In this document: piece by piece, positions 11 through 20,800 of the stretch | Layout of the letters: each line of letters starts with the position of its first letter | Position numbering within the stretch: position 1 is the first letter of the stretch | Virus record (IMG/VR): IMGVR_UViG_3300049222_000239 | Coordinates: 1 to 31,137 of that record | Length of the DNA: 31,137 bases | Origin: a virus | Reading direction: 5' to 3' (one strand) | Position numbers and translations under genes: made by a program | Notes under the pieces: generated by a model | The model's input: only the letters and a program-made list of their open reading frames with translations | What the model was told of the DNA's origin: nothing | The model's database searches: none

Positions 11-796
11 TTACCAGTAACCAGAGAAGTTAGAACTCCCCCCTAATGACTTCCAATATCTACCGATATTGCAAGACCAGTAACCGGCTTTGGTTTTATC
101 TTTTTTCTGTGCACATTTATGTCTAGCGGCAAATGATGCTCTAGCACCTTTCTTTTTAAACTTAACTGAAAGTCCTGTATCACCGAATGATACTTTCTTT
201 ACGTTACCTTTTTTAGATTTTACATAAACGTAGAATTTTTTACTTCCACCTCTTTTAGGTTTGTTAAGTGCAACTTTTTTACCTCTATATTCTGCTTCTG
301 GTATATAATCTACAGAAGCTTTTAACATTTCAAAGCCGTTATAATCGAAAGTTTCGTTTTGTATAGATACTGCTTTTCTAAATTTATCCATATTCATTTG
401 GCCGCCGATAGATTCAACTAGTTCTTTGATCATTTCAAAGTCTATCATTTCTTCTATAGTAGCTGCTTCATCGATAGTGTCTTCATTTTCAATCATCTCA
501 TCGATTAAGTTACCGATTTCAAACATTGGATTATAATTTGGAGATACCATTGGTAAATCTAAAGGTACTCTCATACCATTATAGTCCCCGTACTCCCCGA
601 TATCAGTAGTTTCTAATAATAAAGTATCTTGTTCGTTTAGTTCGATTTTACCGTCTCTCCATGCTTCTCTAGCTTCTTTGAATAATTGTATAAAGGCATT
701 AGAGCTATAACGGTAGACATGCTCGGATAAAGTCAGACCATTATCTAAATGGTATTTTAATGATGGATATCCGATAAGTTCTTTTAGTTGTATCAT
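11..796 (-). CDS. Conserved phage protein with basic Cys-containing C-terminal domain
   Basis: The 261-aa protein starts with SLKYHLDNGLTLSEHVYRYS, then EAREAWRDGKIELNEQDTLL and YGDYNGMRVPLDLPM. This N-terminal module (about 1-90) is one I recall in many marine-phage proteins of unknown role. An acidic middle (about 95-130) follows. The C-terminal ~85 residues are strongly basic: KKFYVYVKSKKGNVKKVSFG, then FAARHKCAQKKDKTKAGYWS and CNIGRYWKSL. The K-FYVYV-x-KKVSFGD-x-SFxARHxC-x-YWSCN pattern is another recurring phage module, seen elsewhere fused to head or structural proteins. Two Cys and a His could bind metal. The stop lies 10 bases from the window edge. Function unknown. Confidence 0.65.
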   Translation of the reverse strand: MIQLKELIGYPSLKYHLDNGLTLSEHVYRYSSNAFIQLFKEAREAWRDGKIELNEQDTLLLETTDIGEYGDYNGMRVPLDLPMVSPNYNPMFEIGNLIDEMIENEDTIDEAATIEEMIDFEMIKELVESIGGQMNMDKFRKAVSIQNETFDYNGFEMLKASVDYIPEAEYRGKKVALNKPKRGGSKKFYVYVKSKKGNVKKVSFGDTGLSVKFKKKGARASFAARHKCAQKKDKTKAGYWSCNIGRYWKSLGGSSNFSGYW

Positions 797-1272
797 TATA
801 TGAAATCTTTTCTATAAAATTTTCCTAGAATATTGTCGTTGATATACTTATCACGGTTCTCTAGTACTTCATTTATAAATAGGTATTTACACTCAAAATA
901 TGTTAATTGCTTCTTATTCTTAACATAGTGTAGAATCTTTCTTTCAAAGTCCATTGGAGAACCTTCTTTGACTAATTTTAGGATATCTTTATGAGAACCG
1001 TAATAATCTTTCCAATCAGATTCTGTTATTACTTTTTGTTTTAAAGGTACTCTTCCTCCTATACCTTTAGCTTTTCTTTCTTCTCTTAAAGCTTCTAAAG
1101 CTCTTTTACCTAGTCTTTTATTTCTTTCAAAAAATAATACTTTCTTTCCTAAGTATTTTTTACCGCTAGGTCTATGAGTAGTCTCATAAATGAATCCATA
1201 CGTACCTTCTGGCATGTCTGATATTTCAGTTACAAGTCTGCTTTTATATGTCCATCCTGGTACTGTTACCAT
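796..1272 (-). CDS. GIY-YIG endonuclease (Seg-like, free-standing)
   Basis: This 158-aa protein fits the small GIY-YIG nucleases common in T4-like marine phages. YGFIYETTHRPSGKKYLGKK (residues 25-44) is the GIY...YIG motif in a variant form (GFIY and KYLG). SDWKDYYGSHKDI (85-97) and FERKILHYVK (109-118) follow, and the likely catalytic Glu127 lies in TYFECKYLF. No recognisable DNA-binding tail such as NUMOD repeats is seen. It lies 37 bp downstream of the Hint gene and its stop shares one base with the next start. It may be a homing nuclease that marks mobility of this segment, or a resident phage nuclease. Motif match good; role unknown. Confidence 0.78.
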   Translation of the reverse strand: MVTVPGWTYKSRLVTEISDMPEGTYGFIYETTHRPSGKKYLGKKVLFFERNKRLGKRALEALREERKAKGIGGRVPLKQKVITESDWKDYYGSHKDILKLVKEGSPMDFERKILHYVKNKKQLTYFECKYLFINEVLENRDKYINDNILGKFYRKDFI

Positions 1273-1309: not shown

Positions 1310-2056
1310 CTACTGAATATTGTCTGTGCCGCCGTAGTCTTTATCATCAGGTTCTTTAAGGGCCATATTGTTATGAACTAAAATTCCTCCTGCAAAATAA
1401 TTATCGACTTGTTCAACATCTAAATCTCCTGTTTGGAATTCTACTACAACACGTTCAATACTTGTAACTTCAACCCACTCTAAATCAGAATTAAAAATAG
1501 AATGCCCTACTCTTAAATGCTTCATAGATTCCCAGGTAATAGTATCACCTTTTTTCATTAACATTGGATGCTCGTTAGTAATTTTTAAATTATTATTGAT
1601 CAAATAATAAGCACCATTTCTACCTAAAGTATTTGTAACAACAGTTGAAACAGTTTTTTCTCCAAAAACTCTATACCTAGCATACCAATCAATCCATGCT
1701 TCTTCTTCTAAACTTAGACCTTCAATATTATAAGAAACTACTTCATCTCCTGCTATAACGTCTTCTATAGGTTTAAATGTATTATCAGCCATTTCTATTA
1801 ATGTACCGTATGCTAAACAGTTACTGCCCCCGCCATTGTTACCACCACTACTACTCGTTGGGCTTGTAGTAGTATCAGATCCTCCATAAAAATCATCGAA
1901 GGATATTTCCCCGCTTGTCGGTATTGAGCTATTAGTTGAAGTACTTGGGACATTAGTACCTCCTTTATAATATTCATTTATAGCAATAGGGTTTGATCCT
2001 CCAAATTCATCTTGGATATCATCTAAACTCATTGTACCGGATGTTTGTAATGCCAT
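1310..2056 (-). CDS. Small tail-anchor protein carrying a Hint autoprocessing domain
   Basis: The 248-aa protein has three parts. Residues 1-60 hold two copies of a phage structural motif (SGTMSLDDIQDEFGGSNPIA with EYYKGG, then PTSGEISFDDFYGG). I recall this motif from N-termini or repeats of tail-fibre and virion proteins. Residues 61-79 are a Ser/Thr/Gly/Asn linker. Residues 80-229 are a Hint domain, followed by a 19-residue acidic tail (NMALKEPDDKDYGGTDNIQ). It starts five bases after the giant fibre stop. It may be a separately made adaptor whose Hint frees or activates the N-terminal module. Alternatively it could be a decayed fibre fragment that kept only anchor and Hint, but the intact signature residues argue against decay. 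Confidence 0.8.
   Translation of the reverse strand: MALQTSGTMSLDDIQDEFGGSNPIAINEYYKGGTNVPSTSTNSSIPTSGEISFDDFYGGSDTTTSPTSSSGGNNGGGSNCLAYGTLIEMADNTFKPIEDVIAGDEVVSYNIEGLSLEEEAWIDWYARYRVFGEKTVSTVVTNTLGRNGAYYLINNNLKITNEHPMLMKKGDTITWESMKHLRVGHSIFNSDLEWVEVTSIERVVVEFQTGDLDVEQVDNYFAGGILVHNNMALKEPDDKDYGGTDNIQ
1370..1819 (-). other. Hint autoprocessing domain of the 248-aa protein
   Basis: This covers residues 80-229 (150 aa). Cys80 starts block A (CLAYGTLIEMADNT, then VIAGDEVVSYN); block B is LKITNEHPMLM with the TxxH histidine; the end is FAGGILVHN with His228-Asn229. The next residue is Asn, not Cys, Ser or Thr. The insert between blocks A and B is slightly longer than in the other two domains but far too short for an endonuclease. 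Confidence 0.9.
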
Positions 2057-2061
2057 GGTAG

Positions 2062-2364
2062 TTAGTTTTTAGATTCTAACTTTTTCTCTAAATCGGCAAC
2101 TTTAGCAGATAATTCTTTTATAGCTTCTACAAGTATAGGGGTAAGTTTTTCGTATTTAACTCCGTAATACCCTCCTTTCATTTCTCCAACTACTTCTGGG
2201 AATACTTCTTTGATTTCTTGTGCTATAAACCCTATATCATTTCCTTCGAAAGGATGTACTACGTCATTTCCTTCCTTCCAATCAAATCGAGTACCTCTAA
2301 GCTTTAAAACTTTAGATAAAGAACCGTCTAAGTTTATGATATTTTCTTTTAACCTTTCATCTGA
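2062..2364 (-). other. Peptidase S74 intramolecular chaperone domain
   Basis: Residues 3072-3171 match the S74/ICA domain that trimerises and folds phage fibres and then cuts itself off. SSDERLKENIINLDGSLSKV starts with the catalytic Ser3072-Asp3073 context and Lys3077. RGTRFDWKEG, DIGFIAQEIKEVFPEVV and GVKYEKLTPILVEAIKELSA follow, ending in a coiled coil. Cleavage is expected before or at the SD-ER site, releasing about 100 residues. Confidence 0.92.
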
Positions 2365-5300
2365 AGAAACAAATGCTGTAATGTTAGCTGATGACTCGAT
2401 GGCATCTGCTTTTAGTTTTCCTCCTTTTACTTCAAAAATCGTTTCAGTCCCACTTAAGGTACCGGTTAATCTTGGAGCTCTTACAAATTTATCAGAATCA
2501 GAAACAATCTGCAAACCACCAGCTTTTAATTCTACGAAGTTACTTGGAACTGCTACTGATATCTCTGTATCGTATCCTCCACTGGACGTGGAAAAAGAAC
2601 TAAATGTATTAGATTGACTTGATCCAATAGAGTGTTGTTTATATTGGTAGGTTACAGTACCGTTTGCACTAGTGGTTTGACCTCTACCGGATGAGGCGTT
2701 TAGTATCCATTTATATCTAAAGTGTATAGCACCAGATTCACTTATAAGAAGGTTAACAGTTTTAGTGGTCTGTTGCGCTTGGGGAGTTAAGGCAGCAGAT
2801 TGTGAAGATCTTGTTGCATTACCCCATGTTAAACCATAAGTCGGGTTATGGTTAATTATGTTATTAGCTATATAGTTAACTTTTTCAGGTACTTTATAAG
2901 AACAAACTTGTAAAGGTTCTCTTATTAATTCTCTTTTAGTTACAGTAACAAGTTCAATACCTTCTCCTGTGTCAACATAAATTTTAGTTTCGTCGGGATT
3001 GATAGACTCTACTTTTACTACACCTCCGCCATCTGTCCAGAAATTGTGTTCGGTAGAAACTTTTAATGTATTTCCTCCTGCTTCTACCTCCCAATATTCT
3101 TGTACTTCTCTAGTACCTATTCTAGTAGGTTTAATTCCTACGAATAGAGAATTATCTTCGTCCCATACTTTTAAAGTATCTTCTTCAGTTATATCTTTAG
3201 CTAGCTTTGTAGTACCGTCTACTAAAGAAACTGCTGAGTTTCCATCTACAGAAAATCCAATTGGTGCGAATTTGAAGTATAAATCATCGTTGTCACTTGA
3301 ACCACCAACAGTACCTGATGCTATTTTATAGGTATATGCACTTGTTGCGCCGTATGCGGTAGATGTACCTAATTCTACAGAACCTACTTCTTGATTACTA
3401 CTATTGAAAGCACATAAATAAAGTGTTGCTCTAGAAAATGCTCTATGCAGTGCAAAATTTCCGTGTGTTTGTCCTGTACTAGAAGGAGTATAGTTAGGTG
3501 TTGTCACATCACCTGTCGGTGTTGTATGACTCCCTACTTTAACTTGGAATCCTGGGACAGAGGATAAGGTTATTTCATATGCACCAGCGGAAGGAGCAGT
3601 AAATGTATCACCATCTTTAGGTCCTAACACAGATCCTACTGTTGAAAAAGTATTTGATAAAAGACCAGTAAGGTACCTATTATAATGACTTTGTCTAGAA
3701 CCTGTTGATGTTATAGATGACCAACCTGAAAATCCTGAGTTGCTACTTGGAATTGAATCTATACTCGCAGATACAGGAGCTCCTTCTGTTGATGTTAATT
3801 CACCTAAAGGAGAAATAATTACTTTCTTTTCTCCATTATCAAACATCTGAATTTCTGGTATGTTAGGTTCAAATACTATTGTACTACCGCTATCTCTTAG
3901 TACATTACTTTCTGCGTCAATTATCCAATCCCCAATTTGACCAGAAGTTGCTTGAATATTACCTTCCATATAAGCATCAGATGCTGACATAATACCTTCT
4001 GCGTCTACTGAGAATAATGCATTGTCTTCATCTGGTATACTTAACGCTCCACCTACTAATGTACCACCGGTTATAGTACCGCCTTCCATATTTGTACCAC
4101 GAATTAATGAACCCGTAATACCTGCTGCTTGAACAATACCTTGGAATGATGCTGAACCTGCAGAGTTGATAAAGAATTCTTTAGAGTGTATACTACCGGT
4201 TGCAGCTAATGTTATACCTGTAGATGAGTTATAATTTCCAGAAGTATTTTTAGTCCCTGAATATATAGCATCTGATTCTATCTCCCATCCTCCTATAAAT
4301 CCATCGTCTATAGTAGAACCGTTTGATACACCTGCTGCTTTGAAATCAAACCAAGTAATTATTGGATTATCTGTTACATCATAGAACGATGAATCCATAA
4401 AGAAAGTTCGATTGTTGGTAGTTAATGCAGAGTGTTTCAGTACGCCATTGTGGTACCACTTAACCGCAGTACCGTCATATACTATATTAAATATATCTCC
4501 ATTAGATATACTAAAGTCGTTGATATTTGTAGTTGTACCATTAGTTCTAACGTCAGCAACAGTACCGTCGATGTAGAATAGGTAATCAATATTGTTATAG
4601 GTAACAGTTTGAGATGGGTTTGAATCTATACCAATCATTAGACGTCTACCGGAAGCTATATTACCTACTTTAAATACTAACTCACATCCATTTGTATAAG
4701 AAATACCAGTTCGTACTTCTTCGGTCCATAGATTATCAACTCCACCTTTCTTCCTTAAAGATCTTCCTACTATTTCAATATTAGTAGAACTTTTCTGCAA
4801 ATCTAAAAGAGAGGTTGCAAGATCTGATATTTCTGTCTGTGCGGTAGTTAAAGCAGTATTAGCTTGTGTTGTGGCAAAACTTTCAGCATTAGATTGAGCA
4901 TTACTAGCTAATGTAGTAGCTTCACTGTCAGTTGCATATCCTACAATACTAATACTACCTGATATAGTTAGTGTAGAGCCGTTCCATGATAATGCTTTAC
5001 CTAAAGAAAACTTACCTGTATTATCTACATAAAATTTAGTATTGTTATTATTATGAGTACCCGTACCGATGAAAAGTTTAGTACTACCTAGGTTAATTCC
5101 TCCTACAGTACCTGATTGGGCTGTTAAAACTCCTGCTGGAGTTACTCTAAATGGTGCAGATGCAAAAGTGGCATTACCTAATTGTATCCCTGATGCTCCT
5201 GCAACAAATATATTAGTACCGCTACCAACAGTCATTGTACCTTTGAAGGTACCGCCTGCTGCTGATAGATCACCTCCAAATACTGCGTCACCGTAAGAAG

Positions 5301-8300
5301 ATATTCTAAACTCTTTAGCTGATATAGCATTACCGTCTAAATCGATTGCCATACCTGCAGAAGAGAATGCTGACCCATCTGAGGTTCCAGAATGATTATT
5401 TGATAATATTTTACCTGTTGAGATTATATTACCTGATATTTTTGTAGTATTTCCTAGCTGTGCTCCAGCTGCCATTGCTGCTATAAGAACGTTGGTGTTT
5501 GAACTAGACATGTAAATAGCTACACCAGGTCGTACAAATCGATCAGTTATTCCGTTATCCACAGAATCATAGACAAAAAGTGGGTTACTATAATCTCCGT
5601 CTTTATAAACAGTATACCTTGCTCCTGTAGCTAATAATCTAATTCTTATTCTAAATTGCTGATTTTCTGAGAAGTCAGAATCGCCTTGCCATTGAGCAGA
5701 AGAGGTACCCATTAAATAGTATTGATCTGCTACTTGAACTCCGTTTTCATATACTCTAAAAGTACCAGTATGATGCATGTAAATGCTATGACGCATCTCA
5801 CTTCTATTAAAGCTGTTTGGGGCTTCTTTATATACCCCAAAAGAAGTTGCAGGATTTTGGTGGCCTGCTACTACGTCCCATTCAAATATAGGTCCGTCTA
5901 ATCTATCAAACTTAGCTAAGGTATGAAAACCTTCATCGTGACTATTATTGTTGTTGTTAAATGTATTACCAACTATTGGTGAAGTTCTAGTATTTGTAGT
6001 AGTAATAGATGAATCAAATACGTTACTATCTAAAGAACCAGAAAACAAATAGGTTACAGTAGGACCAACTCCTTTATTTCCTATAGTTAAAGTCCCGTTC
6101 GTACCATTCCATTGAAGCCCTTCATCTCCACTGCCTGTTAAATAGAAGTTACCTGAACTATCCATATAAGTCATCCAAGCTCCGCCGTTTATGACTCCGT
6201 TGCTGCCGGTAGTGGCTCTATAATACCCTAAGTTATTACTTCCTAAATACAAACCTGATTGTTGTGGAGTAACTGCATCAACAGCAAAACGTGCTGCTAA
6301 ATTAGCAATAGGTCCGAAAGAGTATACTGTTGGGTTAGCTAATGAAGATGTTTTTGCTACTACTCCATCTAATTCACCTTGTACATTATCTAACTCTGCT
6401 TGAGAAGCAAAATCATTTGCATTTGTAACTGTAATATCTCCTTCTATGGTCAAGCTTGAACCATCCCATACTAACTTATCTCCAAGAGAGAATTTACCAC
6501 TTGAACTTACAAAAAAGTTAGTATTAGCGTTACTGTAATCTCCGTCACCAATGTATAATTTTTCTGCTTCTAAATCTATGCCTCCAATAGATCCAGTTCT
6601 AGCTATTACACCTCCGTCTATACTTAAGTCTGAGCCATCCCAGGATAGTCCGCTATTACCGTCACCTGAGAGATAGAAGTCCCCGGAAGAAGACATATAA
6701 GTTTTCCATGTTCCGCTGTCGTAGAAACCAAAGCGATCTGATGTTTGATATAACCCTTGACCATTATTAGCAGGAGTAGGTTGAAAACTAATTTTTCCAT
6801 CCGCATCTACTGATCTTGTGATTGCTGTATCGGCATCTTGTTGTGCTTGTGCTGCTACAATTGATGCAGTATTTGCTGTGTTTAGTGCTTCGTCTGATGA
6901 AGCTGATAAAGATTCTGATGCTTCTGTTAAATCTGCTGAAGCTGAATCGTATGCACCAGTTGCAGCTGTGTTAGCAAAATCTTGTGTTGCAGCATTTCCT
7001 GTATTACCTACAATATTTATTGCCCCGGCTATAGTTAAAACACCACCATCCCATTTTAGGTAATTGGTTTCACTACCAGTAAGGAAGAAGTTACCGCCGT
7101 CGGCCATAAATGTTTTCCATTCCCCATCTTTATAAAAACCTATATTACTACTTCCTAAATGTAAACCTGATCCTTGCGGGCTAGGAGTTCTAACAATTTT
7201 ACCGTCAGCATTTGTAAATGTATCTAAAGATAAAGAATGTGAAGTATCGTTGATGAGACTTTCTTGATCAAAAGTAGTATCGGATGCAGTAACAAACTCA
7301 CCTTCATAACTATTAGCTTCGGAGAGCTCCCATATGTAAACTTTGTTACCGTTATCTGTTTCTATCCACATATCTCCTGCTATCCTACCTATATCACTAG
7401 GCTCAGTAGCTTGACGGAATACAGAATTCTTACCGTCTAATACTCCTTGGAAAGCTGCGTCGGATTGAGATATAGAACGGGATAGGGCAGCAGAAGCTGA
7501 ATCTGAAGCTGAGATAGAGGCTGAGATAGAGCCTGATGCATTATCTGTATATTCTGTAGATGCTGTATAAGCGGCATTAGAAGCACTTTCTGCGGCACGC
7601 ACACCTGTTTGTTCGGCATTAGATGCTGAAATACTTGCAGTGGCAACTGCTGCTGCTCTAGCTGTTTCTACGTTATCGACTGTAGCTGCATTACCGGCTT
7701 TAATATTTATTGTACCGGTTATTTCTAAACTACTTCCATTCCATACTAATGAATTATCCCCACTACCGGTTAAGTAGAAATTACCGTTATCAGACATATA
7801 AGTCTTCCATTCTCCGTCGCTATAAAATCCTAAGTTGCTTGAACCTAGAAATAACCCAGCTGCGTCGTTTGAGGAAGTATCTGGGGGTCTTACAATTTTA
7901 CCGGAACTATCTGTAAATGTATCTAGTGAAATCGAATGTGAAGTATTAGACACTAAATCAGTATATGCATCTTCTTGATCGTAAGTAGCATCAGAAGATG
8001 TTGCAAAGCCTGTATCTCCTCCAATCCAAATATAAACTCTATTTTGATTGCCAGTATTAATCCACATATCACCGATTACCCTACCGGTTGATGTTGGTTC
8101 AGTAGCTTGACGGAAGATAGTGGTTTTACCTGCTGCTAAACTATTTACAGCATCTACACTATCTTGGAGTGTAGCGGTAGAGCCGCTTAGTGCTAGTGCT
8201 CCACTTGCTGAATTCTCTGTTATAGTATCGTTAAGTTCATTTGATGCTGTTGCAACACTATCGGAAACATTTTGAGTAGTTGCTGCATTTCCGCCTGTAA

Positions 8301-11300
8301 TGGTTATCGAACCTTTAATGATTAACTGTCCGTTTGCTGCATCCCAGGCAAGTTTATTATCATTAGAACCAGTTAAGAAGAAATTACCTGAGTTATCCAT
8401 GTAGGTCTTCCAAGCTCCATCATCGTAATAACCTAAATTAGTAGAAGCTAAATATAATCCTGAAGCAGATGCTGTTGGTGGCCTAACTGCTTGACCTGAA
8501 GCGTTAGTAAATATTCTACTGTCTATTTCGTCTGTAGTTTCTGTTACATCGCTTAAAAGTGCTGCATTTGATGCTGAAGTAAATGCTTCGGAAGCGGATA
8601 CTGTTGATGCTGTTGCTTCATTTAGTTCTGTTGTATTAACTCCGGAACCGCCTGTGATATCTATTGCACCTTTAATATTTAAGTTTTCACCATCCCAGTA
8701 GATGTAGTTGTTACCAGATGTTGCAGTACCTACTCTAAACTTACCTGTACCGTCCATATAGATGCCATCTCCTGATGCGCTGGTAATACTGCTTGCATTA
8801 GTTCCTGCAGTTAAAGTACCACTGTTAAGTGAACTAGAAATCATAAACGTAGGAGTATCTAACGTAAACGTTTCTGTTCTAATAACTAAGTTTCCGTCTG
8901 TAAAATTATCTAGAGATATAAAGTTATCTGATCCTCCTACTTTCCAAGCACCGTCTGTATACCAGTAGTTATTATTATTTACAAATATACCGTCGTTGAA
9001 AGCTCCTGTTGTGCCTGATACTTTTCTACCTATAGATATTTTTTGACCTGTTTCTAATCCTCCTGCTGTAGTTGCTACATGAAGTATACCTGCAATAGAA
9101 CCTGTATCGGCAGTAATAGCCCCTTTAAAAAATCCATTTTCAGTATATAAACCAAATCCTGGTTCATTATTTCCGTACAAATATCCTGATGATAATCCTG
9201 ATAAATCTCCTAATCTAGATCTTAACTGTAAGTCGTAAACTCCTGATCCGGTTCTTTCTACTATGTCCATATAAGGGGTAGAAACGTCTCTAGGATTAGC
9301 ATTCATCAATATATATCCTGAGGATATATCTTTATCAGGATCAAAAACTCCTGTTGATAATACTACCTGTCCTTCATTATATGGTTTAGCAGTTGATACT
9401 AACCCTGATAAAAATTCTAAATCAGTATCTATAAGGTATACATCATCTCCTACAGTATGTGAGTTAGGTGCAGTATCGTGATAACCTCTTATAACGGTCA
9501 GTACATTACTATTAATTGCAGTGATTTTTAACCTCTCATCATCAATTTTGATAATATCTTGAACAGTAAATCCATTTGCACTTGTTACGTGTATTGTTGT
9601 TGATGTTACTGTTGATATAGCTTGGGATAAAGTAGAAATAGAAGAAGAAACTGCTGGTGTTCCTCCAAATCCTCTTTCTACATATATTTCACCTGCTAGT
9701 CCATCTGGGTCAATTGAACCGGTATTGTATGATAGATTTTCATCTTCTGAGTATCTTTTAGTTCCGGAAACATACATATACTCAACACTAAACCCAGCAT
9801 CATCTACTGATTTGACTTTTAGTATTTCTCCTTCTTTAAATCCTGATACGTTTGCTAACGATAGAGTAACAGCGTTTGCTGCATAAGAAGATGAACCAGC
9901 GATAATATTTCCATTAGCGTCTCTTAATGCTTCTATAGTTGAAGCGTTAGTAACCATCAATTGACCACCAACTACGTTTACTGTTTCTTTTTCAAATACA
10001 GTGGTCTTTAAAGTACCACGTATTCTCATATTTTCAAATTCAGCTGATCCGTTTCCTAAGGTGTCAATTCTCCAACCTTTAAGATTGGTAGCGAAGTTAG
10101 AAGTTTGTAATCTCCCTGATGAATGTATTATTAAACCTACTTCATCTTCTCCGTATTGTTCTCCGAAACCTGCAGAAGGTATCGATCTTATTTGAGAATT
10201 TGTTATTTCCCATCCTCCAACTTTATTACCCTGTTGGCCAAACATTGCAATAGTGTTACTATTACCTGTTCCTGAACCGTCAAATATCTTTAAACCAAAT
10301 AAATCAGAAGCATCATCAGATATTTCTCCTAATCTGATTATTTCTGCTGAAGCAGTATCAAATATATTAAGTCTTTGAGTTGATGTATCGATATCGAAAT
10401 AAGTCGTGTCTAACTTAAAAGTATCTGTCTTAATATCAACACCACTGGTTGTATCGAACCTAACGTAGTTATTAGCATCCTTAGTTAGATCTAGTGTTGG
10501 AACGGTAGCATCCATCCCAAGAATAATACCAGCATCGTTAGTTGCAAATCCTGTTTTTGCTCCTGCAATTATCATTGCATCTGTTGCACTTCCTGATATT
10601 TTAATCTTATTAGCTGTTCCTACTTCTATAGCAGAAGAAGCGCCTAGTAGTTTTATACTACCTCCGCCAAGTGACATAGAAGCCTCCGTTGAAGATATTT
10701 CTATATTAGAAGCAGATATTTCTAAAAGTTTGGTAGCAACCGATACATCACTACCGTCAAATTCTACAAAGCTACTATCTCCATCACCTACATAAAATCT
10801 CGGAGTACCTTCGTTATATTCTAACTGTATTCCTTGATTACCAAATGTAGAACTGTTAATAGATATACTTTCGTTGGCAGCATCTAATATTATATTATCT
10901 CCTTTTTGTAATTTAGTACTACTAATAGTCCAACCAGCAATACTACCCCCAGTAAATCTTACTGCTGAACCTGTAATGTCACCACTTCCTTTTAAACTAA
11001 AGTTAGAAGCTGAAATAAAGTGATCGTCTAGTTCTGCTGCGCCTGAGATATAAAATGTAGGAGTACCTAAAAAGGTAGGGCCGTGAATAGAATGTGGAGT
11101 AATACTGAAACCACCAATAAGTCCGGATGATGCAGTTATATCCCCTTCTATTCTTGCACCTGAGGCATGTAATAACCCACTTGATGATATGGCAAAGTTA
11201 GAACCAAAGTGTACATAATAAGGTGCAGTTACACTAGGATCGAAATCGATATACCATTCATCAGAAGAAAGCCCGCCTCCATCTGAGTTCATGGCTTTAG

Positions 11301-11577
11301 TCTTGTCGTAGAATTGACCATTAAATAGGTCGATAATCATTCTACTACCGGTAATTTGGCTATCTGCTATAAAAACGTCTCCAATAGATCCACCATTTGC
11401 TTGAAAATCGGCAAATGCTTGTCCACCTACAGGTACATTAATACTAGTACCGTCTTTTCTTTGTAGTGTTAAATTATTATCACTAAACGAAGCTGTAAAG
11501 AAAAACGACCTAAAATTAGCATCTAATTCCTCGTGAGTTAGAGGAGCACCTTTCTCGTCTCTAAAAGTTAAACCCAT
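2062..11577 (-). CDS. Giant multi-domain tail fibre with internal Hint domain and C-terminal S74 chaperone
   Basis: The 3171-aa protein takes up nearly a third of the window. Order of parts: N-terminal anchor (GAPLTHEELDANFRSFFFTA, residues about 10-29); a long beta-rich shaft with recurring I-G-G-W-x-I units (e.g. SIAGWTISSTKL, VGGWEITNSQI); five or more W-K-T-Y-M repeats at about 1045-1800, separated by Ala-rich helices; two FRQATEP...GDMWI modules (about 1156 and 1390); two lectin-like beta-sandwiches (about 1837-2033 and 2266-2414); a short beta-helix-like stretch (GTNMEGGTITGG, about 2495); a Hint domain (2776-2911); a beta domain; and an S74 chaperone (3072-3171). It is probably the long receptor-recognition fibre. 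Two self-processing domains in one chain are unusual. The start follows a promoter-like gap. Confidence 0.85.
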   Translation of the reverse strand: MGLTFRDEKGAPLTHEELDANFRSFFFTASFSDNNLTLQRKDGTSINVPVGGQAFADFQANGGSIGDVFIADSQITGSRMIIDLFNGQFYDKTKAMNSDGGGLSSDEWYIDFDPSVTAPYYVHFGSNFAISSSGLLHASGARIEGDITASSGLIGGFSITPHSIHGPTFLGTPTFYISGAAELDDHFISASNFSLKGSGDITGSAVRFTGGSIAGWTISSTKLQKGDNIILDAANESISINSSTFGNQGIQLEYNEGTPRFYVGDGDSSFVEFDGSDVSVATKLLEISASNIEISSTEASMSLGGGSIKLLGASSAIEVGTANKIKISGSATDAMIIAGAKTGFATNDAGIILGMDATVPTLDLTKDANNYVRFDTTSGVDIKTDTFKLDTTYFDIDTSTQRLNIFDTASAEIIRLGEISDDASDLFGLKIFDGSGTGNSNTIAMFGQQGNKVGGWEITNSQIRSIPSAGFGEQYGEDEVGLIIHSSGRLQTSNFATNLKGWRIDTLGNGSAEFENMRIRGTLKTTVFEKETVNVVGGQLMVTNASTIEALRDANGNIIAGSSSYAANAVTLSLANVSGFKEGEILKVKSVDDAGFSVEYMYVSGTKRYSEDENLSYNTGSIDPDGLAGEIYVERGFGGTPAVSSSISTLSQAISTVTSTTIHVTSANGFTVQDIIKIDDERLKITAINSNVLTVIRGYHDTAPNSHTVGDDVYLIDTDLEFLSGLVSTAKPYNEGQVVLSTGVFDPDKDISSGYILMNANPRDVSTPYMDIVERTGSGVYDLQLRSRLGDLSGLSSGYLYGNNEPGFGLYTENGFFKGAITADTGSIAGILHVATTAGGLETGQKISIGRKVSGTTGAFNDGIFVNNNNYWYTDGAWKVGGSDNFISLDNFTDGNLVIRTETFTLDTPTFMISSSLNSGTLTAGTNASSITSASGDGIYMDGTGKFRVGTATSGNNYIYWDGENLNIKGAIDITGGSGVNTTELNEATASTVSASEAFTSASNAALLSDVTETTDEIDSRIFTNASGQAVRPPTASASGLYLASTNLGYYDDGAWKTYMDNSGNFFLTGSNDNKLAWDAANGQLIIKGSITITGGNAATTQNVSDSVATASNELNDTITENSASGALALSGSTATLQDSVDAVNSLAAGKTTIFRQATEPTSTGRVIGDMWINTGNQNRVYIWIGGDTGFATSSDATYDQEDAYTDLVSNTSHSISLDTFTDSSGKIVRPPDTSSNDAAGLFLGSSNLGFYSDGEWKTYMSDNGNFYLTGSGDNSLVWNGSSLEITGTINIKAGNAATVDNVETARAAAVATASISASNAEQTGVRAAESASNAAYTASTEYTDNASGSISASISASDSASAALSRSISQSDAAFQGVLDGKNSVFRQATEPSDIGRIAGDMWIETDNGNKVYIWELSEANSYEGEFVTASDTTFDQESLINDTSHSLSLDTFTNADGKIVRTPSPQGSGLHLGSSNIGFYKDGEWKTFMADGGNFFLTGSETNYLKWDGGVLTIAGAINIVGNTGNAATQDFANTAATGAYDSASADLTEASESLSASSDEALNTANTASIVAAQAQQDADTAITRSVDADGKISFQPTPANNGQGLYQTSDRFGFYDSGTWKTYMSSSGDFYLSGDGNSGLSWDGSDLSIDGGVIARTGSIGGIDLEAEKLYIGDGDYSNANTNFFVSSSGKFSLGDKLVWDGSSLTIEGDITVTNANDFASQAELDNVQGELDGVVAKTSSLANPTVYSFGPIANLAARFAVDAVTPQQSGLYLGSNNLGYYRATTGSNGVINGGAWMTYMDSSGNFYLTGSGDEGLQWNGTNGTLTIGNKGVGPTVTYLFSGSLDSNVFDSSITTTNTRTSPIVGNTFNNNNNSHDEGFHTLAKFDRLDGPIFEWDVVAGHQNPATSFGVYKEAPNSFNRSEMRHSIYMHHTGTFRVYENGVQVADQYYLMGTSSAQWQGDSDFSENQQFRIRIRLLATGARYTVYKDGDYSNPLFVYDSVDNGITDRFVRPGVAIYMSSSNTNVLIAAMAAGAQLGNTTKISGNIISTGKILSNNHSGTSDGSAFSSAGMAIDLDGNAISAKEFRISSYGDAVFGGDLSAAGGTFKGTMTVGSGTNIFVAGASGIQLGNATFASAPFRVTPAGVLTAQSGTVGGINLGSTKLFIGTGTHNNNNTKFYVDNTGKFSLGKALSWNGSTLTISGSISIVGYATDSEATTLASNAQSNAESFATTQANTALTTAQTEISDLATSLLDLQKSSTNIEIVGRSLRKKGGVDNLWTEEVRTGISYTNGCELVFKVGNIASGRRLMIGIDSNPSQTVTYNNIDYLFYIDGTVADVRTNGTTTNINDFSISNGDIFNIVYDGTAVKWYHNGVLKHSALTTNNRTFFMDSSFYDVTDNPIITWFDFKAAGVSNGSTIDDGFIGGWEIESDAIYSGTKNTSGNYNSSTGITLAATGSIHSKEFFINSAGSASFQGIVQAAGITGSLIRGTNMEGGTITGGTLVGGALSIPDEDNALFSVDAEGIMSASDAYMEGNIQATSGQIGDWIIDAESNVLRDSGSTIVFEPNIPEIQMFDNGEKKVIISPLGELTSTEGAPVSASIDSIPSSNSGFSGWSSITSTGSRQSHYNRYLTGLLSNTFSTVGSVLGPKDGDTFTAPSAGAYEITLSSVPGFQVKVGSHTTPTGDVTTPNYTPSSTGQTHGNFALHRAFSRATLYLCAFNSSNQEVGSVELGTSTAYGATSAYTYKIASGTVGGSSDNDDLYFKFAPIGFSVDGNSAVSLVDGTTKLAKDITEEDTLKVWDEDNSLFVGIKPTRIGTREVQEYWEVEAGGNTLKVSTEHNFWTDGGGVVKVESINPDETKIYVDTGEGIELVTVTKRELIREPLQVCSYKVPEKVNYIANNIINHNPTYGLTWGNATRSSQSAALTPQAQQTTKTVNLLISESGAIHFRYKWILNASSGRGQTTSANGTVTYQYKQHSIGSSQSNTFSSFSTSSGGYDTEISVAVPSNFVELKAGGLQIVSDSDKFVRAPRLTGTLSGTETIFEVKGGKLKADAIESSANITAFVSSDERLKENIINLDGSLSKVLKLRGTRFDWKEGNDVVHPFEGNDIGFIAQEIKEVFPEVVGEMKGGYYGVKYEKLTPILVEAIKELSAKVADLEKKLESKN
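2845..3252 (-). other. Hint autoprocessing domain, internal in giant fibre (Ser-1 type)
   Basis: This covers residues 2776-2911 (136 aa). Aligned by the D-G-T motif to the C-terminal Hint of the 1568-aa protein, position 1 is Ser2776 (SVDGNSAVSLVDGTTKLAKD). Block B is LKVSTEHNFWT with the TxxH histidine. The end is NNIINHN with His2910-Asn2911. No endonuclease is inserted. The next residue is Pro, which would hinder ordinary splicing and C-terminal chemistry. The domain lies between two beta-rich fibre segments (DDLYFKFAPIGF before, PTYGLTWGNATRSSQ after). The Ser-1 assignment is inferred from alignment by eye. Confidence 0.75.
4330..4800 (-). other. Lectin/SPRY-like beta-sandwich insert 2 in giant fibre
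   Basis: Residues about 2266-2414 contain NGCELVFKVGNIASGRRLMI, then IDYLFYIDGTVADVRTNGTT and NIVYDGTAVKWYHNGVLKHS. The G-D-x-F-x-I-x-Y-D-G-x-x-V-K-W-Y-x-N-G pattern is typical of SPRY- and concanavalin-like domains. It is a plausible ligand-binding module; the ligand is unknown. Confidence 0.55.
5460..6069 (-). other. Lectin-like beta-sandwich insert 1 in giant fibre
   Basis: Residues about 1837-2033 interrupt the repeat pattern with a non-repetitive beta-rich domain. It contains GFHTLAKFDRLDGPIFEWDV, SIYMHHTGTFRVYENGVQVA and IRIRLLATGARYTVYKDGDY. The G-x-F-R-V-Y-E-N-G and Y-T-V-Y-K-D-G-D patterns look like concanavalin-type sandwich strands. Carbohydrate binding is an inference. Confidence 0.5.
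6150..8470 (-). repeat. W-K-T-Y-M fibre repeats alternating with Ala-rich helices
   Basis: Within the giant fibre at least five units share the plan L-G-[SF]Y-x-G-x-W-[KM]-T-[YF]-M, then G-[ND]F[YF]L[TS]G, x-L-x-W-[DN]G, and I-x-G-x-I. Examples are NLGYYDDGAWKTYMDNSGNF, NLGFYSDGEWKTYMSDNGNF, NIGFYKDGEWKTFMADGGNF and RFGFYDSGTWKTYMSSSGDF. The fifth has an insert before GAWMTYMDSSGNFYL. Three shorter relatives keep only GKF[SR][LV]G...W[DN]G. Between units lie Ala/Ser-rich helical segments (SASSDEALNTANTASIVAAQ). Spacing is irregular at roughly 410-690 bp, so these are old protein repeats, not recent tandem DNA copies. Confidence 0.8.
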
Positions 11578-17854: not shown

Positions 17855-20800
17855 TTATTGAAAAGCGTCTGTAATTTCAGTTCTTGACTTAGCATTGTGA
17901 GATAAAATTCCGTTAGAAATATATGTACTAGCTTTTTCAACTGAGATTTGAATAACTTCACCTGCTTCGTATTCTTCAAACTTTTTAAACTCTAATTTAG
18001 ATAGTTTGTTTCCTTGCTTTAATTCATCCGCATCTACATAGTCGTTAACATCGTCTACATAAAATCTATGTTTAGGGGAAACTACAATTTCTTTATCCCC
18101 AACATAAACCTTGATTCTATCACTTAAGAACCACTTTACTTCTTTAACTAAAGCATTAACAACCTCTAAGGTTTTTTCATCTCTAGTTTGTACTTCATCT
18201 CCTACTTTTATCTCAGATGCTTTTTTCTCAGTTCCGTCACCCATACGGATGTTAACGTCAGGGGCAACACATCCACCGGTACCTCCTGATGAGGTTGTTC
18301 CTGACTGTGCTACTGTTAACTGTCTTAAAATAGTTCCGTTTCCTATACTCGTTCCTGTCCTTAAGGTGAGTGTTGTATATCTAGTTGAACTACTACTATT
18401 ATAGCTAAAATAGACACTTGTACTACCTAAACCTGTACCGGTACGAGTTGTAGTTGATACTGAGCTCCATGATTGGTTTTCAGTTAAATTCCAAGATAGG
18501 GTTGATGGTGTAGCAGTGATTGTATACGATTTAGTTTGGCTACTCCTACTAACAGAAGATGCTCCAAAAATGTATCCAACTTGAACGTTCATTACTATAG
18601 TATCAGTTAAATTTGAAGTACTTGAATTACCAGCTTCATCTTGAAATGATACAGTAGCAGTTATAGTACCATTTGGAAGTGAGTGAACATAGCTACTAAC
18701 TATATAATCTATATTTGGTGAATAAGAAACCGTATTATTGTATGCAGTTGAAAGTGTATAGTTCGTCCCGCCGCCACTAGAGGATAGAGTTAGATATGCT
18801 GTCCCTTTTTCATTATTAGGTATGTTTGCTACACGTATATAGAAGTTAGCTGTATTAGTGGTTGTAGCTTCTATAGAGTAGTTTGCACTATTATAAAACT
18901 TTACACTATCTGCAGATGGAACTGTGGTATCTTTTAAACTTGCGGTTAATCCAGCTGAGGGATGAGATGGTGCACTTGCGTATGCTCCTTGGTTACCACT
19001 AGGGTCTACTAATCTAACATCTAAAAGTACGTCTACTCCGTCTCCTAGTCCTGATGTGTTTAACGTAGCGGATTGAGTTGCTGCATTAGTTATGGTACCG
19101 GTTGCTGTTACTATAGTACCTGGTGTTGATGCTAACGAAGCTGATGCTTCATATGTAGAGTTTAATTCGCCGTTATATATTTGAAAAGGTACTGTTGCTT
19201 TATTAGCGGCATTGATAGTATCCGTCATCCATGTTGCTGTGTAGCCTGTAGGTGGTGTTGAATCAAATTGAGAACAATTTTCTACCTGTAATACCTTACC
19301 TATGTCGGCACCTGAACCTCCTGTTCCTCCAAGAAGTATAGAGTAGCCGTTATCTGTTTTAAACCATTTATCCGCAGAGCTAATATTGAAAGTAGTATTA
19401 CCGCTAATATCTAAAAATACAAAATCACCAACTGTCAAAGGGTAAGTTCCTGTGCCACTGTGGTAGTAGGTATTTCTACTGTTATTTGTAGCACATGAAG
19501 CTGTAGCATCGTTATTTGGTGTAGGGTCAAGTTGAAAAGAAGTGTATGTTACGTTACTACTCTCTTCTAACGGCACTATATCAAAATTAAGAGCTGGGAC
19601 ATTAACTTGTTTAAATGAGTTTAATTTATTTAATTCTCCATCTGTTACTTCTATTTCTGAACCGCCTAATTCTCCGTTAATCTTTGGAGAATCGTCATCT
19701 ACCCATTTTACTACTGATCCGGTTAAAGTTCTTATATCTTCTTTGTAAAGAGTAGACTTTATTCCAGGTACTATTTTATCTAGAGGTTTAGTATAGTTGG
19801 TAAAGCGACTTAAATCGTCTGTATCAGCTGATAAGGTAAATCCTGCTATTATCACATCTGTAGCTAATGGTGTAAAGGAAGATGAAATACTACCTAAATT
19901 ATCTCTAGCTACCCAGCTATTTTGTCCATGTGGACTATAGTCTATAGGTACTAAATGAGGGTGAGCAAAATTTAAATTGTCTGAGCCGCCTTGTCCGTCG
20001 TTAAAGCTAAATCTATCCGCAACTGATTCAGAAGTAAACATTATATAGAAATCCATATCAGTACTTACATTTCCTTCGTATGGCGTATAAACTGTTCTAT
20101 AGTAGTCAGGGAATGTATATAAAGTACCGTCTGGGTGGTAGAACTTAGTACCATGTACTACTATCTCACCCGGGTTGGCAGCTGTAGGGTTTGAAAAATC
20201 AGGTTTAAATTGAAAATCACTTACTCCTCCTAATGATTGAGGCCAAGGGTGTTCTAGGTCCTTTTCAAATTTTACTAGAGGTTTAGCTGTTTGATAAGCT
20301 CCTCCTGCAGATCCTGTTATAAAAGCAGTATCTATTTCTGCTTCAAATTCAGGACGTGTACCTGACATTTTAGGAGTTTTAGCTTTTGATCTATCTAACA
20401 AATGAGGTTTGATAATTATACCTGTATCTAGTGTTGCTTTTGCAGGTACAAAATCTTTTATCATTTTAAATACTACATTATCGTAAAACTTTAATAAACG
20501 TACAAAATCGTTAAGCTCAAAGCGATTAAGTCCTTGTAGTATAGTGTTAGCTCTTTTATCTAAGTCTTTATAAGCTGGTTGATATGCTTGTCTAGGGTCA
20601 CCTATATAATCATCAACGGAAAAATCAGAAGGTACTTGCGATAATATATATTCATTTATACTATCAGCGGGTGAAAAACCTACTTCTAACCTATGAATAT
20701 CTCTTGTGATTTCGTTTTCTTCTTTTTGTATAGATTTATCTTTTGTTAATACCTTTCCTACTGAACCGCTTGCTCTAGTTTCATATTTTACCTTATTCTC

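Follow-up and report, generated by a model that had tools for sequence, protein, structure and literature searches.

Background

Hint chemistry is familiar from inteins, Hedgehog proteins, BILs and the ubiquitin-like genes of ciliates, and a histidine in block B activates the amino-terminal bond. This histidine is the most conserved of intein residues; two inteins that lack it are known, one of them a pseudogene (PMC4031507). Type A BILs form a thioester at the N-terminal end and cyclise an asparagine at the C-terminal end, which leads mostly to cleavage and in some cases to joining by attack of an amine (PMC4031507; PMC7664689). For BIL2 of the Tetrahymena BUBL1 locus, formation of an isopeptide bond with a lysine has been published (PMC8616854). 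The phage Hints described in the literature searched are inteins of replication, packaging or metabolic genes, and searches of the open-licence literature found none that treats Hints as components of phage tails. A second system of relevance is the adhesin gp38 of phage S16, one copy of which docks on the threefold tip of gp37 via three helices with aromatic apices (PMC6851490).

The window analysed here is the whole of a 31-kb virus record (IMGVR_UViG_3300049222_000239, 31,137 nucleotides) that carries a myovirus baseplate and tail module; its source is a marine phage, probably of Bacteroidota. Judged by the gp6-like baseplate protein, the closest cultured relative is Flavobacterium phage immuto (54.5% identity). 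The gene order of immuto is similar to that of the window, but immuto has no counterpart gene between the fibre gene and the SegE-like gene, and no Hint was present among those of its tail proteins that were tested.

The gene and its neighbours

A sequence-only reading had proposed, next to the giant fibre gene, a stand-alone protein made of an anchor, a linker, a Hint and a tail. The open reading frame is real. It fills the interval given in Table 1 exactly, on the minus strand, the plus strand at 1310-2056 having stops throughout, and it begins 5 nt past the stop codon of the fibre gene, so the placement right after the fibre also holds. The composition of docking module, linker, complete Hint and acidic tail is confirmed, and Cys80 and the His-Asn pair are the same residues that had been singled out. 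The tail (residues 230-248, NMALKEPDDKDYGGTDNIQ) has 19 residues with a net charge of -3, lysines among them. With matches in Pfam, PHROG and PDB folds and a nine-member family under selection, the gene and its family stand far beyond chance.

Table 1. Features of the 248-aa gene and of related or adjoining genes in the window
Feature	Position	Strand	Evidence
Whole gene, 248 aa + stop (1310-1312)	1310..2056	-	ORF, syntenic homologues
N-module, residues 1-62, motif copies MSLDDI/IAINEY/ISFDDF	1871..2056	-	Relatives, post-fibre position, repeats
Ser/Thr/Gly/Asn linker, residues 63-79	1820..1870	-	Sequence; disordered in models
Hint, Cys80 to Asn229	1370..1819	-	Profiles, fold models
Cys80, predicted nucleophile for the N-terminal bond	1817..1819	-	Invariant, nine homologues
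Block B, Thr160-Asn-Glu-His163	1568..1579	-	Homologue alignment
His228-Asn229, predicted Asn cyclisation site; +1 = Asn230	1370..1375	-	Invariant, nine homologues
19-aa acidic tail at the C-terminus (Lys234, Lys239)	1313..1369	-	Sequence; fast-evolving
Giant fibre, 3171 aa, directly upstream; likely docking partner	2062..11577	-	
C-terminal S74 chaperone domain of the fibre	2188..2364	-	Pfam PF13884, E 3e-15
Second Hint (fibre-internal), Ser2776-Asn2911, +1 Pro	2845..3252	-	Kept in relatives
Third Hint, C-terminal end of a 1568-aa tail protein, Cys1431...His-Asn	17894-18271	-	
SegE-like GIY-YIG protein, downstream	796-1272	-	PF19835, E 4e-26

The Hint domain

The Pfam Intein_splicing profile matches the Hint with E 3e-8, its 33.9 bits falling slightly short of the curated cut-off (35.8); PT-HINT and Vint score more weakly. 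There is also a match to PHROG 38766, a virion structural protein (E 1e-12). AlphaFold models of the Hint have a pLDDT near 90 with an alignment of nine sequences and above 90 with 47. Residues 80 and 229 of the model align to the first and the last residue of the splicing domain of the Mtu RecA intein. The Hint is complete, as had been supposed. The top Foldseek match is BIL2 of the BUBL1 locus (E 2e-9), which also leads in VIA-align (Z 19.7; 135 residues at rmsd 1.5). DnaB inteins and the Clostridium thermocellum BIL (Z 17.6) come next, and Hedgehog (1at0) has Z 17.3. Since Z differences of less than 1 count as ties in this ranking, BIL2 alone stands out, and only slightly.

To what class does the domain belong? 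Every sequence-level defining feature of A-type BILs that was tested is present in the family: a Hint fold, Cys or Ser at position 1, a terminal His-Asn, no C, S or T at +1 (Ser in one homologue, L256) and occurrence in variable proteins. On these grounds it is filed as an A-type-BIL-like Hint with predicted autocleavage. It fits the A-type BILs and not the inteins because a nucleophile at +1 is missing. An ordinary class 1 intein is ruled out, as +1 is Asn, only 19 residues follow and there is no interrupted host protein.

With the C. thermocellum A-type BIL (PDB 2lwy) the Hint shares, besides the fold, Cys1, the block-B Thr and His, the terminal His-Asn, the lack of C, S or T at +1 and the location in a variable protein. 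It differs in belonging to a phage protein of virion type, in the fibre-docking module, in the short acidic tail and in having Gln in block B of some homologues. BUBL1 BIL2 (PDB 6y75, 6tmm) has in common with it a small N-terminal domain that is, or here would be, passed on, and a lysine nearby. However, identity is only 24%, the present protein is from a phage and not a eukaryote, and its flanks are not ubiquitin-like; the N-module flank gave no ubiquitin-like match. The Hedgehog Hog domain is similar in fold, in Cys1, in its position as last domain and in that the N-terminal part could be transferred, but it has a sterol-recognition region and lacks a terminal His-Asn. The sequence-only reading had likened the protein to Hedgehog. 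Membership of that class is ruled out, as the 19 acidic residues after the Hint leave no room for a sterol-recognition region and the terminal His-Asn is present.

A probable docking module at the amino terminus

The first 60 residues, earlier taken for a virion anchor, do look like a docking module, and the same module fronts other proteins encoded after fibre genes. In many viral contigs it heads, at 40-77% identity, Gly-rich proteins (Gly_rich_2, PF21722) as well as proteins of other folds, the cargo often being Gly-rich and adhesin-like. Of 29 loci examined, near copies among them, about 21 have directly upstream a gene for a fibre with an S74-type coiled-coil end or an end near the S74 cleavage site (ITAYGS and the like). 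Fibres without an S74 chaperone (L011, L015, L341, L358, L359 and L362) stop near the S74 cut point, at ITAYGS or similar, and an N-module gene comes immediately after each.

The module contains one motif three times (ISLxDI, ISLSEY, ISFDDF); the motif, which was defined after the alignment had been viewed, gives 62 matches in 26 sequences versus 1.6 in shuffled ones. Its copies lie at or beside three short predicted helices in the model from 47 sequences, which is of moderate confidence and has short helices only; in the model from nine sequences the module has no resolved structure. Matches of the N-module in Vibrio phages sit in a poorly annotated stretch.

As with S16 gp38, the gene stands straight after a distal fibre gene, which is also the case for the N-module relatives; the three motifs and three short predicted helices of the N-terminal part may correspond to the helices of gp38. 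The Gly-rich receptor-binding part of gp38-type adhesins, found in other N-module proteins (PF21722), is absent here and replaced by the Hint, and a sequence search of the N-module against solved gp38 gave no match. Because of the post-fibre position, the threefold motif and the S16 precedent, the N-module is read as a docking module like the attachment domain of gp38, and a threefold motif is what would be expected of a seat on a trimeric tip. It is thus from gene order and motif that we infer docking on the fibre.

One further protein (L334:2983-4929) combines N-module, Gly-rich region and Hint, and possibly links adhesin-type and Hint-type cargo. It ends in VSA, the only short tail without a lysine.

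A family between the fibre and SegE-like genes

An alignment of five Hints was too divergent for a search of viral contigs. Two other routes succeeded: DNA patterns built on the C-terminal motif, and the SegE-like neighbour used as bait, which brought in 80 loci. In eight other distinct virus contigs, a gene for a similarly built protein (231-248 aa) lies between the genes for a giant fibre and a SegE-like protein (L229, on the same contig as L148, and L232, L241, L242, L245, L253, L256 and L262). Remaining relatives have different cargo in this slot, or an empty slot.

Cys1, His-Asn and the block-B Thr are invariant in all nine sequences, so the predicted catalytic residues on which the sequence-only reading depended are conserved. 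At +1 the window protein has Asn, seven homologues have P, I, V, V, A, V and A, and L256 has Ser. The Hint is under purifying selection, with dN/dS of 0.10-0.33 across the family, whereas values for the C-terminal tail are mostly near or above 1. N-module subtype, linker, tail and the presence of the gene itself all vary among relatives. Conservation of linker and tail had been another point of interest: their character is kept, their sequence is not. Two N-module subtypes are paired with similar Hints (L253 versus L256), which indicates that the parts of the protein are shuffled. In one homologue (L229:4206-4949) the tail has a run of ten Asp.

The block-B His is His in five of the nine members and Gln in four, L241 and L242 among the latter, and the Gln branch has dN/dS of 0.10-0.30. 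As this His is so rarely absent from inteins, the Gln branch is a real caution; judging by sequence, the N-side step in these members may be slow, lost or carried out otherwise.

The SegE-like gene, labelled NAD synthetase in many phage records, keeps its place among relatives while the gene upstream of it varies. It may help in the exchange of cargo.

Hints in other tail proteins

The two other Hints of the window are also in tail proteins. That of the giant fibre interrupts a C-terminal beta-domain; it is kept in many relatives, where position 1 is always Ser and +1 is P, T or A. Fibres of four loci (L226, L231, L240 and L261) have no internal Hint. A Hint-bearing fibre is present in 8/8 distinct loci with the 248-aa-type gene and in 7/11 loci without it (one-sided Fisher P 0.085); a trans reaction between the 248-aa protein and the Hint of the fibre is not claimed. 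In the 1568-aa protein only AKSRTEITDAFQ follows the His-Asn before the stop. The Hint at the end of a homologue of this protein (L146) is of the other type; Hints are thus swapped between tail proteins. With the Hint of the 1568-aa protein as query no relative was recovered from viral contigs, and tblastn with these two Hints gave no match in cultured phages.

How widespread are such domains? A C-terminal-motif pattern that is neutral at +1 found 120 Hints in viral contigs. C, S or T occupies +1 in 107 of them; most of the other 13, which lack such a residue there, are in tail-like proteins and have a Gly-rich stretch ahead of Cys1. The set was enlarged by further pattern scans and by cultured phages. 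All 92 alignable Hints without a +1 nucleophile start with Cys (86%) or Ser (14%); their block B always contains T or S, and 95% have the His. Since the search pattern itself demanded His-Asn, that pair does not count as evidence. A quick tree, whose deep forks are weak, places phage-tail Hints and phage inteins, some exceptions aside, on opposite sides of a branch with SH-aLRT 95. In it the Hint of the 248-aa protein shares a group (96) with Hints from Alexandra-like phages, NCTB and others, and that of the 1568-aa protein joins the fibre Hints (97).

The tail proteins of NCTB and of the Alexandra-like Erwinia and Dickeya phages resemble the 248-aa protein in linker, in Cys1-Hint-His-Asn and in a tail of 7-12 residues at the C-terminal end. 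They differ in having collagen-like or other N-terminal parts and no N-module, and are annotated only as intein domain, tail or hypothetical. The uniqueness implied by the sequence-only reading is therefore lost, since the same build terminates many phage tail proteins.

Several variants occur. Tandem Hints, the second beginning a few residues from the His-Asn of the first, are found in L135, L185 and L384, and proteins in L182 and L222 end with Hint, His-Asn and just one Lys; no tail could be shorter. A Hint-like protein of 153 aa in phage NCTB (L020:2744-3205) stands alone, with hardly any residues ahead of the Hint, and its gene overlaps the end of that for another Hint-ended tail protein.

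No description of a fibre-tip docking module joined to a Hint, or of the wider group of phage-tail Hints, was found in the open literature searched.

What might the protein do?

We lean towards self-processing of a fibre-tip protein by A-type BIL chemistry, the adhesin part having been replaced by the Hint. The N-module (residues 1-62) would dock at the tip of the trimeric fibre from the neighbouring upstream gene, in a protein that fills the gene slot held by Gly-rich, gp38-like adhesins in other phages. Cys80 would attack the Asn79-Cys80 bond to give a thioester, and cyclisation of Asn229 would free the tail. Three products would result, namely N-module plus linker (about 79 aa), the released Hint and a short peptide of acidic character; alternatively the N-module would be passed to an amine. 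By analogy with type A BILs, cleavage is likely and transfer to an amine plausible; ordinary splicing is not favoured, as there is no nucleophile at +1. Docking at the tip, catalysis and its timing are what we infer here, and any acceptor of the module is speculative. Against self-processing, the 79 residues left after loss of the Hint have no obvious job beyond docking, and the Gln in 4/9 members and the Ser at +1 in L256 would also fit it poorly.

Could the Hint be an acyl-transferase instead? It would hold the docking module as a thioester and hand it to the amine of a lysine in its own tail, in a fibre chain or on the host surface, forming an isopeptide without ATP, much as BUBL1 BIL2 does with ubiquitin-like domains. 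We consider this unlikely as the main role, although two observations point to it. One is that the top fold match makes such a lysine bond (PMC8616854); common fold is, however, no proof of common chemistry. The other is an excess of lysine after His-Asn. In clusters that were not selected for K, 23/27 have a Lys within 10 residues (P 5e-5 against the 12.8 that C-termini would give; internal stretches would give 9.6), and +1 is K in 22/22 clusters found only by a pattern that allows K, N, D or E. The comparable figures are 0/5 for fibre Hints and 4/11 for inteins, and Arg is not enriched. Yet the pattern was first seen in part of the same data and is in this sense post hoc, the part fetched after the prediction was written gives 8/10 (P 0.06), the position of the lysine ranges from +1 to +10, and C-termini are generally Lys-rich. 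The lysine pattern would suit an amine acceptor; with a variable position and a post hoc discovery it is a lead. That phage tails carry a group of self-driven Hint ligases, with the docking module here welded through a Lys isopeptide, we regard as doubtful.

The Hint could also be inert, a stable beta-fold that stands in for an adhesin at the fibre tip, either to bind or to cap the structure. It does occupy the place of the adhesin domain in N-module proteins, and one branch has lost the block-B His and is still under selection. Stability alone, however, poorly explains Cys or Ser at position 1 in 92/92 Hints together with T or S in block B of all, over wide divergence, and an inert role seems quite improbable. 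An intein that has decayed or is drifting, or else a selfish element beside a homing-type endonuclease gene, as the Hint fold and the GIY-YIG-type SegE-like neighbour might suggest, is very improbable given the lack of a +1 nucleophile and of an interrupted host protein, the low dN/dS, the separation from phage inteins in the quick tree (SH-aLRT 95) and the persistence of the SegE-like gene when the cargo changes.

Significance

Of the earlier interpretation, the likely virion anchor, the complete Hint and the conserved, predicted catalytic residues stand, while Hedgehog membership and uniqueness do not. Here the Hint is a conserved component both of tail fibres and of a probable fibre-tip protein; its active site is intact, and it has no splicing nucleophile. 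As a compact module, it could serve as a tool for joining proteins without a C, S or T scar. If it does act as a ligase, the fibre tip would be covalently locked, or attached to the host, without ATP or other enzymes. More generally, if the Hint acts, phages would mature or weld their organ of host recognition by autocatalytic cleavage or amide ligation. The findings suggest that intein chemistry serves phages in trimming parts of their tails, or perhaps in welding them chemically.
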